Origin: Clostridia bacterium
GTDB lineage: Bacteria; Bacillota; Clostridia; Oscillospirales; Acutalibacteraceae
Assembly (NCBI GenBank): GCA_017472225.1
Contig: JAFUQS010000106.1
Location: 1-49,237, forward strand
Direction of reading: 5' to 3'
Length of the DNA: 49,237 bases
In this document: positions 32,202 to 44,960 of the stretch, in pieces
Layout of the letters: every line of letters starts with the position of its first letter
Position numbering within the stretch: position 1 is the stretch's first letter
Program-made: the position numbers and the translations under genes
Notes under the pieces: model-generated
The model's input: only the letters and a program-made list of their open reading frames with translations
Databases searched by the model: none
Told to the model about the DNA's origin: nothing

Positions 32202-33549
32202 AATTTATCTTAACGAAAACGAGATGCCGAAGGCATGGTACAACCTCAGGGCAGACATGAAAAAGAAGCCCGCTCCCCTTCTCAACCCGGGTACCCTTCA
32301 GCCCATGAAGGCAGAAGAGCTTGCAGGTGTATTCTGTGAAGAGCTTATCGCACAGGAGCTTGATAACGATACACCCTTCTTTGAAATTCCCGAGGAAATC
32401 CGTAATTTCTACAAGATGTACCGACCCTCTCCCCTTGTTCGTGCTTATTGCCTTGAAGAAAAGTTAGGCACTCCCGCAAAGATTTACTACAAGTTTGAGG
32501 GCAACAACACAAGTGGCTCACACAAGCTGAATTCTGCAATAGCTCAGGCTTACTATGCTAAAAAGCAGGGGCTCAAAGGTGTAACCACTGAAACGGGTGC
32601 AGGTCAATGGGGCACTGCTCTTTCTATGGCTTGTTCCTACTTTGACCTTGATTGCAAGGTGTATATGGTTAAATGCTCTTATGAGCAAAAGCCATTCCGT
32701 CGTGAGGTGATGCGTACCTACGGTGCATCGGTAACGCCGTCACCCTCAACGGAAACAGAAGTGGGCAAAAAGATTCTTGCCGAGCACCCTGGTACAACAG
32801 GAAGTCTTGGCTGTGCAATTTCCGAAGCAGTTGAAAAGGCTGTTACAAGTGACGGCTACCGTTATGTACTCGGCAGTGTTCTCAATCAGGTGCTTTTGCA
32901 TCAGTCGGTTATCGGTCTTGAGACAAAGACAGCACTTGATAAGTACGGCATCAAGCCCGACATGATTATCGGCTGTGCAGGCGGTGGCTCAAATCTCGGT
33001 GGTCTGATTGCTCCCTTTATGGGTGAAAAGCTTCGTGGCGAAGCTGATTACAGAATTATCGCAGTTGAGCCTGCATCCTGTCCGAGCTTTACAAGAGGTG
33101 TGTACGCCTACGATTTCTGCGATACGGGAAAGGTTTGTCCCATGGCAAAGATGTACACCCTCGGTTGTGATTTTATTCCTTCCGCAAACCATGCAGGCGG
33201 TCTTCGTTATCATGGCATGAGCTCGACTCTTTCAGAGCTTTATGATCAGGGACTTATGGAAGCTGTGAGCGTAAAGCAGACAGATGTATTTGAAGCAGCA
33301 GAATACTTCGCAAGAGTTGAAGGTATACTTCCTGCCCCTGAAAGCTCACACGCTATCCGTGTTGCTATCGACGAAGCACTGAAATGCAAGGAAACGGGTG
33401 AAGAAAAGACAATCGTCTTCGGTCTTACAGGTACAGGATATTTTGACATGGTGGCTTACGAAAAATTCCATGACGGTGAAATGAGCGATTACATCCCCAC
33501 CGATGAGGAGCTTGAAGCTTACCGTACAAAGCTTCCCAAGATTGATTGA
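32176..33549 (+). CDS. trpB: Tryptophan synthase beta-like protein (TrpB2 type)
   Basis: 457 residues, PLP enzyme joining indole and serine to tryptophan. The PLP lysine is in the N-terminal S-G-S-H-K-L-N motif, with E-T-G-A-G-Q-W-G after it and the phosphate loop C-A-G-G-G-S-N-L-G-G. Length and the N-terminal extension fit the TrpB2 subgroup, which works without TrpA. No trpA is nearby, so it probably salvages free indole. Start is at 32176 behind CAGGAGG; the further open frame upstream belongs to the leader. Controlled by the Trp T-box. Confidence 0.9.
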   Translation: MKQEKIPYKIYLNENEMPKAWYNLRADMKKKPAPLLNPGTLQPMKAEELAGVFCEELIAQELDNDTPFFEIPEEIRNFYKMYRPSPLVRAYCLEEKLGTPAKIYYKFEGNNTSGSHKLNSAIAQAYYAKKQGLKGVTTETGAGQWGTALSMACSYFDLDCKVYMVKCSYEQKPFRREVMRTYGASVTPSPSTETEVGKKILAEHPGTTGSLGCAISEAVEKAVTSDGYRYVLGSVLNQVLLHQSVIGLETKTALDKYGIKPDMIIGCAGGGSNLGGLIAPFMGEKLRGEADYRIIAVEPASCPSFTRGVYAYDFCDTGKVCPMAKMYTLGCDFIPSANHAGGLRYHGMSSTLSELYDQGLMEAVSVKQTDVFEAAEYFARVEGILPAPESSHAIRVAIDEALKCKETGEEKTIVFGLTGTGYFDMVAYEKFHDGEMSDYIPTDEELEAYRTKLPKID

Positions 33550-40074: not shown

Positions 40075-41307
40075 TCAAAAGATGTCCAACTTCGATAAGT
40101 TGTTAAATGATTCCTGCTTCTTCTGATCCGTAGCTTCAGCATAGATATCCATCGTCGTTTCAATGTTGCGATGTCCCATGATATCTTGGATCACTTTTAG
40201 ATTTGTTTCGTGCTCACAGAGTCTGGTACAAAAAGTGTGTCTTAGATGGTGACAAGAAAAATCCGGAAGAATGACCGGCTCACGACGCTCTCTTTTTGCT
40301 TTCACAACCTCATCTGAGTTGTGGCTGCAAACAATGCGTTTTATGGTTCGATTTACGGACTGCGGGGTCTGGATTCCACCATAGCGGTTGATGAATATAA
40401 ATCCCTTCATACCATCAAGTTCTGTATCGAATGTTCCAGACTCATCTTGTTCCTCGCGCACCATTTGAAATGCATCATAGACAACATCAAGCATCGGAAT
40501 CGTGCGGATACCTGCTTCCGTTTTTGGCTTTGAAATCTGCAAGGTGGATGTTCGGGAATTTCCTACCGGGTAGTAGACAACGCTATGGTTTATGCTGATC
40601 TTGCGATTATCAAAATCAAGGTCGTCCCATGTCAATCCTAATACCTCGCCGATTCTGCCACCGGTACCGAGCAATACTGTAAATAGTGGCCACCAATGGT
40701 AATACACCGGATGGTTAGCAATATAATCCATAAAGGATCTCTGCTGCGGCTTTGTAAGAGCGTGCCGCACACCTCTTGCCTTGTCACTCTCTTTGCTGAC
40801 TTCCTTCATCACGCCATCCGACGGGTTCTTTCTGATAACTTCATCCCGGACCGCCAGCTGAAAGGTTGGATGCAGCAAAGTGTGTACCGAATCCAATGTA
40901 CCCAATGACAAATCATCTACATTAAGCAGATGGAGATAGAATTGAAGCACATCCGAATATTTTACCTCAGCAATTTTCTTCTTGCCAAAAGTGTCTCTGA
41001 CAAAGCGATCATAGATATAGATGTAATTACTACGGGTAGTCTCCCTTAACTTGCATTTGGTAGACATATATCTATCAAATGTGTCGTTTATGGTTGCTTT
41101 TCCCGCAACGTATATATCCAGCCCATCCAACTGATCCTTCATCAGCTGCTTTTCTTTTTCTCTAAGTGTCGTCAGATCTTGTGCATATATAAACTTACGC
41201 CTTCCTAATGGGTCGGTGTAGGTATACATATATCGCTTGTCTGACGCTCTCTGTACCTCTCCCTTTCTAAGCGCTCTACCACGCTCGTCTTTTCGTGCCT
41301 TTGCCAT
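40075..41307 (-). CDS. int: Tyrosine site-specific integrase, Tn916 type
   Basis: 410 residues from the ATG at 41307 behind AAGGAGG. N-terminal AP2-like arm-binding domain (about 1-65), SAM-like core-binding domain (about 72-170), catalytic domain from about 180. Catalytic residues: R218 (G-G-R-I-G-E), H353-x-L-R356, H379 (G-H-R) and Y389 (D-I-Y). It integrates and excises the element. As usual it sits at one end, with a small RHH protein and a DUF6462-like protein upstream, one of which may serve as excisionase. Confidence 0.93.
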   Translation of the reverse strand: MAKARKDERGRALRKGEVQRASDKRYMYTYTDPLGRRKFIYAQDLTTLREKEKQLMKDQLDGLDIYVAGKATINDTFDRYMSTKCKLRETTRSNYIYIYDRFVRDTFGKKKIAEVKYSDVLQFYLHLLNVDDLSLGTLDSVHTLLHPTFQLAVRDEVIRKNPSDGVMKEVSKESDKARGVRHALTKPQQRSFMDYIANHPVYYHWWPLFTVLLGTGGRIGEVLGLTWDDLDFDNRKISINHSVVYYPVGNSRTSTLQISKPKTEAGIRTIPMLDVVYDAFQMVREEQDESGTFDTELDGMKGFIFINRYGGIQTPQSVNRTIKRIVCSHNSDEVVKAKRERREPVILPDFSCHHLRHTFCTRLCEHETNLKVIQDIMGHRNIETTMDIYAEATDQKKQESFNNLSKLDIF

Positions 41308-41352
41308 ACTGATTACCTCCTTCAATATATATTGAAAAGGGGCTCACAGCAC

Positions 41353-41523
41353 TTACTTCTTTTTGGACAAATACTCTTCCAAACTTCGCAAGGCAACTTC
41401 TGTCATTGACATATTATGTTTGATGGCATACTCATTTAACTTCTTATGGGTTTCATCCGACATACGGATTGTTATGGTTGCTCTTTTTGCATTATCCTTC
41501 TTCGGTCGTCCCATTCGTGTCAT
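41353..41523 (-). CDS. Small ribbon-helix-helix protein
   Basis: 56 residues, start ATG behind GGAGGTAGC. Sequence begins M-T-R-M-G-R-P-K-K-D-N and continues with the strand A-T-I-T-I-R-M and two helices (D-E-T-H-K-K-L-N-E-Y-A then S-M-T-E-V-A-L-R-S-L-E-E-Y-L), the fold of MetJ/Arc/CopG DNA-binding dimers. It lies 45 bases upstream of int on the same strand and likely regulates int or the element's left end. Confidence 0.85.
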   Translation of the reverse strand: MTRMGRPKKDNAKRATITIRMSDETHKKLNEYAIKHNMSMTEVALRSLEEYLSKKK

Positions 41524-41630
41524 ATGCTACCTCCAAACACTGTGTATATTATACTTATTGTAAGACAGAAAGTCAATACCTCGTGTGCTCTTCGTCCCCA
41601 TATTATTCGGAAATTCATATTACTAACCCT

Positions 41631-41840
41631 TCAACATTCACGGAATGTCTCAAGAAACTTCTCGAAAATCTCGCAGTTGACCAGTGCTATTCCGTCAATT
41701 TTATAAACCGCCTTGGCTTCTTTTGCCAGTGCCTGAAACTTTGTCAATCCAAGACTGTACTTTTCGGCTCCTTCTTTATACCTGACAAATTTCTTTGCAT
41801 ATTGTTTTGTCTTCTCTGCATCTTTTCGTTGATATCCCAT
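41631..41840 (-). CDS. DUF6462-like small protein, possible excisionase
   Basis: 69 residues, basic at the N-terminus. R-Y-K-E-G-A-E-K-Y-S-L-G-L-T-K-F-Q-A-L-A-K-E-A-K-type helix-turn-helix, then V-N-C-E-I-F-E-K-F-L-E-T-F. The winged-helix-like pattern is that of excisionase-type proteins found beside integrases in Clostridial elements. Start ATG behind AAAGGAGG. The excisionase role is inferred from position. Confidence 0.75.
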   Translation of the reverse strand: MGYQRKDAEKTKQYAKKFVRYKEGAEKYSLGLTKFQALAKEAKAVYKIDGIALVNCEIFEKFLETFREC

Positions 41841-41926
41841 TATTCGGTTCCTCCTTTATCTTAAAAATCAGCGAACATCGCTAACGATATTAATTTCTTC
41901 CTTATATAAATATATGTCCTTACACT

Positions 41927-42080
41927 CTGCCTGCAGCGAACAGGTCCATAGGAATTTCACCTTCCCGCCTTCATTATGGCCGGACCGCGAGTTACGGAAG
42001 TCTCATTATCCCCGGATGAATCATCGCGTTATGTAGGAGCCACCTACATATCAGTGCTCATGGACCTGCGTGCCAGGCAG
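41927..42080. ncRNA. Strongly paired non-coding segment (RNA or origin-like)
   Basis: The 416-base gap between 41841 and 42256 has no credible gene. A long-range helix closes it: CTGCCTG and CAGGTCCAT (41927-41933, 41941-41949) pair with ATGGACCTG and CAGGCAG (42060-42068, 42074-42080). Inside are the hairpin TATGTAGG/CCTACATA (42030-42050) and a CGCGA/TCGCG pair (41986-41990 with 42024-42028). It could be a structured RNA upstream of the DUF6462-like gene or an origin of transfer/replication. No known family recognised. Confidence 0.45.
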
Positions 42081-42220
42081 TTGGATAGCCGCTTCGCATT
42101 CCGGGACCGTAGAGGTAAAGACTATTCAATTGTCAAGGTGCGATAAAACATAGGGATGCTTTCATAAGGTAAAAACACAAAAAAATCTCAAAATATAATC
42201 ACTTCCCGAAAAAATTTATA

Positions 42221-42249
42221 AAAAAAGCTCCGGATGTGCAGTCCGGAGC
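42221..42249 (-). terminator. Terminator after the sigma/HTH pair
   Basis: Perfect 8-bp stem GCTCCGGA/TCCGGAGC with a seven-base loop and a six-T run on the minus strand. Confidence 0.88.
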
Positions 42250-42256
42250 CTTGTCG

Positions 42257-42448
42257 TTATATTATGAACTTGTTGATATTGAGAGCCAGATGCATCAGAA
42301 GATACTGCTTCAGATCGTCATCATGCTTACCGTTTATAAAACAATGCTTGTCTATCAGAGGATCATAAATGGTAATCAATTTCTCAAAGTCATTATGATT
42401 GCCTGCAATAGCGCCTTGTAATATAATCTGAAATTCGGTTTTATCCAT
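42257..42448 (-). CDS. Helix-turn-helix protein, Tn916 Orf8-like
   Basis: 63 residues from the ATG at 42448, which overlaps the stop of the sigma-like gene by eight bases. The pattern F-E-K-L-I-T-I-Y-D-P-L-I-D-K and D-L-K-Q-Y-L-L-M-H-L-A-L-N-I resembles sigma region 2-like HTH_16 proteins next to Orf7-type sigma factors in Tn916-family elements. It probably acts with the sigma-like protein encoded just upstream to express element genes. Confidence 0.75.
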   Translation of the reverse strand: MDKTEFQIILQGAIAGNHNDFEKLITIYDPLIDKHCFINGKHDDDLKQYLLMHLALNINKFII

Positions 42449-42854
42449 CGATATCACCACCCTCCACGATTGTCTTGCGTAAATACTTCAAGCCCTTTTG
42501 CTTCTGGTTTGAAACATATTGCGCTGAACAATTCAGTATTTTGGCGATATCCCGTGGCTTCATTTCATCCACGAAAAGCAACTTAAGTATCTGTTGCCTC
42601 ATCAGCGGCAGCTCTGAAAACGCTTTTGCAAGGCGCTCTTCTGTAAACCCAAAAGGGTCATCAGAAAATAGCGTCTGCATATAGGCGTCCTCAGTTGCCG
42701 GCAACTGATCCTCGTCAAGCGAATCCAACGATTCGTGAGGTTCTTCACATTCTCGCTCTAAGTAATTGAGCTTAGCACGTTTTAACAACGTATCGAGCCA
42801 CGCAGTAAACCTTGCGCGGAGCTCATCTCGATCAGCGTTTTGTCGGTAGTCCAA
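42441..42854 (-). CDS. Sigma-70-like protein, Tn916 Orf7-like
   Basis: About 137 residues. The C-terminal region-4 helix-turn-helix is clear (M-R-Q-Q-I-L-K-L-L-F, then P-R-D-I-A-K-I-L-N-C-S-A-Q-Y-V-S-N-Q-K). A TTG at 42854 sits seven bases after AAAGGAGG; the upstream GTG at 42881 would place the ribosome site inside the gene, so TTG is preferred. It likely directs transcription of element genes. Confidence 0.8.
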   Translation of the reverse strand: MDYRQNADRDELRARFTAWLDTLLKRAKLNYLERECEEPHESLDSLDEDQLPATEDAYMQTLFSDDPFGFTEERLAKAFSELPLMRQQILKLLFVDEMKPRDIAKILNCSAQYVSNQKQKGLKYLRKTIVEGGDIDG

Positions 42855-43004
42855 ACATATGCCTCCTTTGGGGCATACCACCGAGCAAAACTATATTTAC
42901 AACATGCCACAGTGGCATGCCGTGAAATTATATTCTGTGTTCGTACAGTTGGGTCCACAGCAATCAGAACATTGGAATCACCTCCTTCCCGTAAGACAAA
43001 CAAA

Positions 43005-44042: not shown

Positions 44043-44960
44043 TTATGCATTAGGGCGGAGCATCTGCGTTCTGCCGAGCATTTCATAGCCCACGGCATTG
44101 GCATTCGGGGAGTCCACGAAGCTTCCTCTCATAACCATAGGCGAATCCTCAAGGAACGGACGAAGCAAAATGCTACCACCTCCGACAAAAATCGCCGGAT
44201 TGGATCTGAGGTCAACCTGCAGCTCACGAAGCTGATTTAGAATGTTGCTGGCGTGTTGCTTGGTTGCACTCGTGATAGTTTCTACTACATCAGCAGGCAA
44301 TCCGATATTTCTTCCACAGAGCACATCACTGATATGCTCATCGTCGAGCAGCATGTCGTGATAGGAGTTGACTTTACGAATAATTTCGTTATTCATCGTG
44401 ATTACACCGGATTCTAAGCTTCTGCAGAACTGAAAGTCGAGCTTGCCGTTCTTAAGCAACAGAACATCGGTGGTATAACCGCCGATATCCACGATGAAGA
44501 TTCGGGGTGTATTAACAATCAGGCTGCTCTGCGGAACGACCGCTGCATATGCCTGCGGGAAAACCATAACCTTATCAATTATAATACTGTACGATCTGTC
44601 TTTATAGATGAAATTGATGGGACCATCCTTTTTGAAGTAACCGGCGAATTTATTCTTCAGAACGCCGTAGTGCTCAGGCGGAAGTCCAACCGCCAACTGA
44701 ATCTGCTCAAAAGGCATATTCCTACCGGCAGTTTCCAGTTCTTTTGCGATAGCGATGAGAGTCAGAATGAAATATCTCTCATCATTGGTCTTATCCTTCA
44801 TATAACTCAGACGCTTTCCGCTTAGCGTCCAGAACTTACCGCCGTATTCCAGAATTTCGTCGGTCATAGGTGGTTTTACTGTATGCTCGGAGAGTCCGGC
44901 AACGAAGGAATGATTTACTGTCTTGATGGCAAAGTTGCCATGATCAATTGCGATTAACAT
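44043..44960 (-). CDS. ParM/StbA-like actin-fold ATPase
   Basis: 305 residues. Actin-fold motifs: phosphate 1 A-I-D-H-G-N-F-A-I-K (4-13), phosphate 2 V-D-I-G-G-Y-T-T-D-V-L (near 170) and adenosine motif F-V-G-G-G-S (near 265). It forms filaments that push DNA copies apart. Start ATG behind TGGAGG. With the adjacent ParR-like protein it should stabilise the element while it exists as a circle. A centromere was not found in the 141-base gap upstream. Confidence 0.85.
   Translation of the reverse strand: MLIAIDHGNFAIKTVNHSFVAGLSEHTVKPPMTDEILEYGGKFWTLSGKRLSYMKDKTNDERYFILTLIAIAKELETAGRNMPFEQIQLAVGLPPEHYGVLKNKFAGYFKKDGPINFIYKDRSYSIIIDKVMVFPQAYAAVVPQSSLIVNTPRIFIVDIGGYTTDVLLLKNGKLDFQFCRSLESGVITMNNEIIRKVNSYHDMLLDDEHISDVLCGRNIGLPADVVETITSATKQHASNILNQLRELQVDLRSNPAIFVGGGSILLRPFLEDSPMVMRGSFVDSPNANAVGYEMLGRTQMLRPNA

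Follow-up and report, generated by a model that had tools for sequence, protein, structure and literature searches.

A pemK RNA at the canT position of a Tn916-like element in a Clostridia bacterium: a probable antitermination RNA

We found that the gap at positions 41841-42256 of the window, by which we mean the whole analysed stretch of 49,237 nucleotides (contig JAFUQS010000106.1, Clostridia bacterium), harbors a pemK RNA, and we put at about 80% the probability that the minus strand of this gap specifies a canT-type (Tn916) antitermination RNA acting in cis. This reading is based on the canT position of the gap, on the pemK match found within canT itself and on the S3 mutation, which falls on the first bases of that match; canT-like activity of the window RNA is what we infer from this analogy. 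The RNA is a new member of the pemK/canT family, and the new point concerns the function and full architecture of the family. The preliminary description had raised the possibility of a new RNA class. What the gap holds is indeed a structured RNA, found in Clostridial mobile elements and covarying in its pairing, but it belongs to pemK (RF02913) and is not a wholly new class. The founding paper on pemK is reportedly that of Weinberg et al. 2017. Among the matches listed by our literature search, no paper linking pemK with canT or with antitermination was found. The analysis joins an orphan RNA family, matched in 94 of the 295 genomes of the window's order that formed the search set (controls: 0 of 14), to canT, the function of which has been measured and the structure left aside. 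It also predicts antitermination in many mobile elements, including those where plain sequence hardly reveals canT.

Gene context and extent of the RNA

The gap is located between an orf8-like gene and a DUF6462 gene, both on the minus strand, and is gene-free over its 416 bases as first described, with just two mechanical plus-strand ORFs intruding at its edges. The minus-strand order orf7 - orf8 - RNA - xis position - int is that of a Tn916-like right-end module. It comprises an orf7-like gene with a Sigma70_r4 domain (42441-42881, Pfam-type domain call), the orf8-like gene with an HTH_16 domain (42257-42460, domain call), the DUF6462 gene in the xis position (41631-41840, domain call), a ribbon-helix-helix-like (RHH) gene (41353-41523, MTRMGRPKKDN.., Pfam matches below their cut-offs) and an integrase gene with a Tn916-type DNA-binding domain (40075-41325, PF02920 and PF00589), all on the minus strand. 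The DUF6462 protein of the window gave no BLASTP match with Tn916 Xis. At another locus (L156, 1212-1418, minus strand; loci are cited by our L numbers), a single protein matches both Tn916-Xis and, below the cut-off, DUF6462, which suggests that DUF6462 is an excisionase-like family. The contig end at 49237 falls inside the element, the left end of which is off the contig. Other features of the window include a gene for an actin-like (ALP/MreB-like) protein within the element (44043-44960, minus strand), a near-consensus promoter TTGACT-17-TATAAT (41548-41576, minus strand) located directly ahead of the RHH and integrase genes and separate from the RNA, and a Gut-1 RNA match (RF01706; 33600-33671, plus strand) with 53.2 bits, just over the gathering threshold of 50.

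The single gathering-level Rfam match in the gap is to pemK RNA (RF02913), at 42009-41946 on the minus strand, with 71.4 bits and an E-value of 5e-11 (gathering threshold 34.8); it is also the one pemK match in the window's own genome. The match spans model positions 1-61 and retains the core motifs AUAAUGA..ACUUC and GGUGAAAUUCC..AUGR. A kinship with cobalamin riboswitches, prompted by GGUGAAAUUCC, was rejected, as none appeared among the permissive Rfam matches of 8 loci. The conserved RNA exceeds the 61-nt Rfam model and occupies about 42138-41897 on the minus strand, the lengths of the conserved unit being 242 nt (window) and 299 nt (Tn916). The boxA-like site, two long closing helices, hairpins and a loop-loop contact all lie outside the Rfam model.

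Read from its 5' end, the RNA (41897-42138, from boxA to the 3' flank of P1) starts with the boxA-like site CCTTGACAATTGAATA (42123-42138), read in the window as GCACCTTGACAATTGAATA and identical to the Tn916 boxA at 13 of 16 positions. It is followed by the 5' strand of P1, GTCTTTAC (42115-42122), which pairs with GTAAGGAC (41916-41923), and by the 5' strand of P2, CCCGGA (42100-42105), the partner of which, TCCGGG (42011-42016), stands immediately 5' of the core. P2 encloses a local hairpin of the P3 region, CCTG..CAGG (42065-42077), and the P4 hairpin TATGTAGG-TGGCT-CCTACATA (42030-42050), the loop of which is the partner of the P8 loop. The pemK core (41946-42009) starts with AUAAUGA, and its first AUA (42009-42007) is the triplet whose change inactivates canT in Tn916. 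The P8 hairpin CCTG-TTCGCTG-CAGG (41930-41944) comes next. A k-turn-like GAC..CGAG in P3, seen in many relatives, is absent from the window.

To describe the whole unit, we built a covariance model, R1, of 255 positions from 17 RNAs (alignment A2), leaving out Tn916 and the near relatives of the window. R1 recognizes the window RNA at 42138-41897, minus strand, over 242 nt (71.7 bits, E 3.2e-17), and canT of Tn916 over 299 nt (70.5 bits, E 6.3e-17); it gives 47.8 bits for L126 and 29.4 bits for L125, and its best presumed chance match reaches 21.0 bits over 62 nt in an rRNA locus. Judged by this model, the window RNA and canT appear to have a common extended architecture, with the core contributing to the score.

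Covariation across the family and the long-range helix

The covariation comparison with relatives that the preliminary description had called for supported the family helices, in the 51 relatives compared as well as in the hold-out set of 23 loci. We oriented 109 loci, i.e., 108 at gathering level (among the matches listed) and L125, which scores 33.6 against the gathering threshold of 34.8. After removal of duplicates and of loci cut by contig ends, 105 sequences remained for mutual information and 51 entered alignment A1. Mutual information recovered the outer closing helix, P2, the P3 hairpin, P4, the core and P8, all of which were mapped to the window. In A1, 71.8% of 1791 cells pair; the corresponding figures are 53.4% for shuffles and no more than 47.7% for slid controls. 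The covariation score is 0.370 versus 0.153. Two-sided changes affect 9/9 pairs of the family P1, 8/8 of P2, 6/6 of the P3 hairpin and 5/5 of P8; in the window, both strands of P1 and of P2 as well as the P8 hairpin were also retrieved by an alignment-free helix search. The total of 38 pairs with any two-sided change does not go beyond shuffles, 51 of 500 of which are as high. Core helices 6-9, where inserts vary in length, map badly in A1; they are included in the totals and are the basis for no statement.

The hold-out is the one independent test and weighs more than A1, whose structure was obtained from largely the same sequences. Here, the structure was taken from 80 training sequences (boxA score of at least 11, spacing 101-234) and applied to 23 loci from outside the window's order, which were aligned afterwards by sequence; these were left from 29 after omission of one already included, three unlocated, one mislocated and one Tn916-like copy. 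We determined that 71.9% of 958 cells pair, whereas slid controls do not exceed 46.5% and the highest of 500 shuffles reaches 59.1%. Pairing amounts to 71.3% for P1, 70.4% for P2, 64.0% for the P3 hairpin, 62.7% for P8, 87.4% and 80.2% for two core helices and 31% for the last, two-pair helix. Two-sided changes occur in 38 of 48 pairs, a number that shuffles also reach (mean 29.9, maximum 38). In a phylum-wide sample, pemK was found in 26 of 398 genomes. Two papers, in the portions of their text available, list pemK among the families that gain covarying pairs over the Rfam structure on re-analysis, which agrees with a fold of larger extent.

Among the isolated non-nested signals, the strongest connects the P4 loop with the P8 loop. 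The two loops of the same sequence form at least 4 consecutive Watson-Crick pairs in 52 of 79 sequences, whereas swapping the partners yields 25.4 sequences on average and 37 at most, a result that supports the L4-L8 contact. In Tn916 the loops read UUUAGCA and UGCUAAA, and in the window the loop match is short. By eye, several relatives (L005, L012, L013, L063 and others) carry a further H-type pseudoknot 3' of P1, with a loop like GGGGUGUCGAGGACAAAUA; it was not seen by eye in the window or in Tn916. One locus (L098) contains two tandem pemK RNAs, with cores 392 nt apart.

The segment had been called highly structured and was drawn around a helix of 16 pairs enclosing about 110 bases. Structure there is, and so is the helix, yet neither the strand, extent and fold as drawn nor a general conservation of the helix in relatives held up. 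A pairing search places its arms at 41927-41949 and 42060-42080, with no strand given; 9 pairs join 41941-41949 to 42060-42068 and 7 join 41927-41933 to 42074-42080, separated by an internal loop. With Watson-Crick pairs only, 16 pairs are reached by 5 of 400 dinucleotide shuffles, and with G-U allowed by 119 of 300. Both arms coincide with the two local hairpins (CCTG..CAGG), which have a common stem sequence in the window; across the wider family, local covariation is seen at either hairpin position. The 16-pair helix is not the family fold. It counts against the canT-type reading that in the window the helix beats P3 and P8 in predicted energy, so that a competing conformer is possible.

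Conservation was judged in the relatives L106 and L125, the two nearest divergent ones, and in L127. By alignment column, the helix is kept at 16/16 pairs in L127, 6/16 in L106 and 9/16 in L125; L127 says little, being about 98% identical to the window (over 325 of 382 bases compared). P4 is kept at 8/8, 8/8 and 7/8 pairs in L127, L106 and L125, respectively. It counts against the canT-type reading that P1 (3/8 in L106, 1/8 in L125), P2 (0/6 in both) and P8 (0/4 and 1/4) of the window also fail this column measure, and the comparison was therefore repeated without alignment. All four sequences then display P1-like helices of 6 to 9 pairs, P2-like helices of 6 or 7 and P8-like helices of 4 or 5, while the long-range helix is missing from L106 and is represented in L125 by a 10-pair version, a length equal to the 95% point of shuffles. 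It is therefore unlikely that the helix is a functional alternative fold of this subfamily, acting as a switch between long-range and local pairing, even though both the minimum-energy and the centroid fold predicted for the minus strand contain it, few shuffles attain its Watson-Crick pairs, L127 keeps it and L125 can form its shorter version.

As for energy z-scores, we set them aside as evidence: they are weak for the window and stronger for canT (z -2.89). The folding energy of the whole gap is modest (plus strand, z -2.46 versus shuffles), and the RNA on the minus strand has z -1.42, with 15 of 200 shuffles as low. The fold of canT from energy alone was likewise discarded, its topology differing from the covariation model. 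The family alignment gives a fold that single-sequence prediction did not.

The boxA-like site and correspondence with canT

Upstream of the core, 72 of 109 loci carry a match to the 16-mer derived from Tn916 at no fewer than 13 positions, versus 0.8 expected from shuffles; the 109 include Tn916 itself, from which the 16-mer was taken, as well as some near-identical copies, and L096 and L110 are scored as misses owing to too little upstream DNA and a wrongly cut stretch. Of 108 downstream control stretches, one has a boxA-like match. Among the loci of the phylum-wide sample the site occurs in 14 of 25, one of these being a Tn916-like copy. In 16S-23S rRNA spacers of the same order, the 16-mer is matched at 14 or 15 positions in 10 of 12 cases (e.g., GCACCTTGAAAACTGAACAA in L134), while the other two, from one genome, agree at 11/16 and are non-matching; the 12 rRNA loci come from 5 of 8 genomes, and none was found in the window's own genome. 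The window RNA thus has in common with rRNA-operon boxA antitermination the boxA-like sequence of same-order rRNA spacers; it differs in that a large structured RNA, and no rRNA, follows boxA. By eye, a hairpin GAGAGG..CCUCUC often stands just 5' of boxA (L005, L018, L071 and others), and this order of hairpin and boxA recalls rRNA leaders. The boxA-like site suggests that NusB-S10 takes part, and boxA and NusB are thereby indicated as a testable mechanism.

In the Tn916-like element of plasmid pCF10 (L129), the canT interval contains a pemK match (1723-1623, minus strand, 55.0 bits), upstream of which we found TGTTCTTTGAAAACTGAATA, which we take to be the rRNA boxA of Bacillota. The inactivating S3 change maps to the three bases with which the pemK match begins (L129 1723-1721), and canT(delta162), nucleotides 229-390, corresponds to L129 1777-1616, so that both P4 and the core are lost in it; residues A30 and Y65 of orf5, used as landmarks, fit these assignments. 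S3 itself is described as a replacement of ATA by TGC at position 283 counted from the orf8 stop, according to the accessible text of the canT paper (Wirachman and Grossman, 2024; PMC11658703). As far as that text goes, the orf8-xis interval is a cis-acting, orientation-specific, processive antiterminator, which is most likely an RNA, works on foreign terminators without other Tn916 genes and shows no complementation in trans; the authors left its structure aside and propose that the nascent RNA stays with polymerase (PMC11658703). The words pemK, boxA and NusB are absent from the same text (PMC11658703). Against the canT-type reading counts the statement in it that S3 had little or no effect in an active 400-bp canT fragment (PMC11658703). 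An active 452-bp fragment maps so that it starts inside boxA, retaining UUGAAAACUGAAUA without UGUUCU, so that a requirement of canT for boxA is putative; this, too, counts against the canT-type reading.

The window RNA and canT have in common the place from orf8 to xis-int, the orientation, a boxA-like site, the P1-P8 layout and a pemK core with the AUA changed in S3, and both match R1. Their sequences have diverged, Tn916 has xis where the window has the DUF6462 and RHH-like genes, and P3 and the core insert are both shorter in the window RNA, which is preceded by a terminator-like site. Antitermination was measured for Tn916, whereas the window RNA is known from its sequence.

Since the gap has inverted repeats, lacks genes and lies in a mobile element, it could also be read as a DNA element, an origin of transfer or of replication, as had been suggested for this segment. 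We consider this extremely improbable. The conservation is of the RNA type, with boxA and compensatory changes; a search allowing up to 3 mismatches finds the Tn916 oriT core nowhere in the window (0 matches), and the Tn916 oriT lies elsewhere, just after orf21, the equivalent Tn916 place being that of the antiterminator. In the accessible text on canT, moreover, its loss did not reduce excision and affected transcription (PMC11658703). The proposal of an origin of transfer is accordingly unsupported, and no sign of a replication origin came up.

Proposed function and related systems

As an antiterminator of the canT type, the RNA would act as follows. Transcription in the orf7-orf8 direction would yield a nascent RNA displaying the boxA-like site and adopting the P1-P8 fold, including the invariant pemK core and the L4-L8 loop contact. 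By analogy with canT, it would most likely stay with RNA polymerase and allow read-through of intrinsic terminators ahead, so that transcription may cross the xis-like, RHH and int genes and, in the excised circle, be carried over the junction into the transfer genes. BoxA may recruit NusB-S10, a step read from the sequence only.

The arrangement of terminators bears on this proposal. A scan detected an intrinsic-terminator-like site after the orf8-like gene and upstream of the RNA (42224-42252, minus strand), and listed no sigma-70-like promoter on the minus strand between this site and boxA; both points count against the canT-type reading. In L125, a terminator-like hairpin is visible by eye at a similar place (about 925-958). 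A terminator-like site bounding the 5' side would befit a free-standing small RNA acting in trans, which we nevertheless regard as very unlikely: the scan found no minus-strand terminator between the RNA and the DUF6462 gene, and canT, in the available text, failed to complement in trans (PMC11658703). By eye, there is a weak hairpin with five T at about 41860-41880, between the RNA and DUF6462.

Further evidence on function comes from the genes downstream of pemK RNAs. We clustered 216 first or second ORFs from up to 134 loci by single linkage, naming clusters by Pfam on one representative each, and found serine recombinases at 47 loci, PemK/MazF toxins at 38, tyrosine integrases at 23, ParA at 20 and HTH/excisionase-like proteins at 20. 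Such neighbors fit elements whose transcript crosses the recombination module and the circle junction, as in Tn916. At the same time, it counts against the canT-type reading that pemK RNAs stand ahead of parA and pemK genes as well and could have another role there. In our view it is unlikely that the RNA is a local cis-regulatory leader (riboswitch-like or translational) with the next gene as its sole target, for these downstream genes are unrelated to each other, as expected of an antiterminator and not of a sensor of one pathway. The frequency of the boxA-like site among the loci and the activity of canT on foreign terminators without other Tn916 genes, as given in the available text (PMC11658703), point the same way, whereas the Rfam type label of pemK, Cis-reg, and the start of the first chosen downstream ORF, often 80-230 nt after the core, would agree with a leader.

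Among other systems, conAn2 of pLS20 resembles the canT type in being an antiterminator RNA from a conjugative element of Gram-positive bacteria, although it works together with the protein ConAn1, as far as the available text describes it (PMC8955417). It was rejected as a relative: positions 1-50000 of the 65,774 bases of pLS20 contain no gathering-level pemK match, and the best R1 E-value is 1.2. The put RNA of HK022 and Bacillus EAR are RNA-based processive antiterminators too, likened here by their description in the available text alone (PMC11658703). In turn, dinG RNA (RF03082) is connected with pemK through weak matches of the dinG model on pemK cores. Three of six dinG loci (L174, L177 and L178, of L173-L178) have a boxA-like site at 14/16, with P2-like pairing by eye in two of the three. 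R1 gives the dinG RNAs 18.7-22.7 bits, about what the best presumed chance match attains (21.0 bits), and that dinG RNAs form a divergent branch of the same superfamily is suggestive only. On a broader scale, the chances seem to us even that pemK and probably dinG RNAs make up one widespread superfamily of boxA-nucleated processive antiterminators that borrow host rRNA antitermination factors in mobile elements of Bacillota, with canT as its first tested member and the 61-nt pemK of Rfam as the core only. By DNA similarity, no match was found among plasmids, and two unannotated records were found among phages. A boxA-like site, matching at 14/16, was observed in pLS20 (L131) at 33330 on the plus strand.
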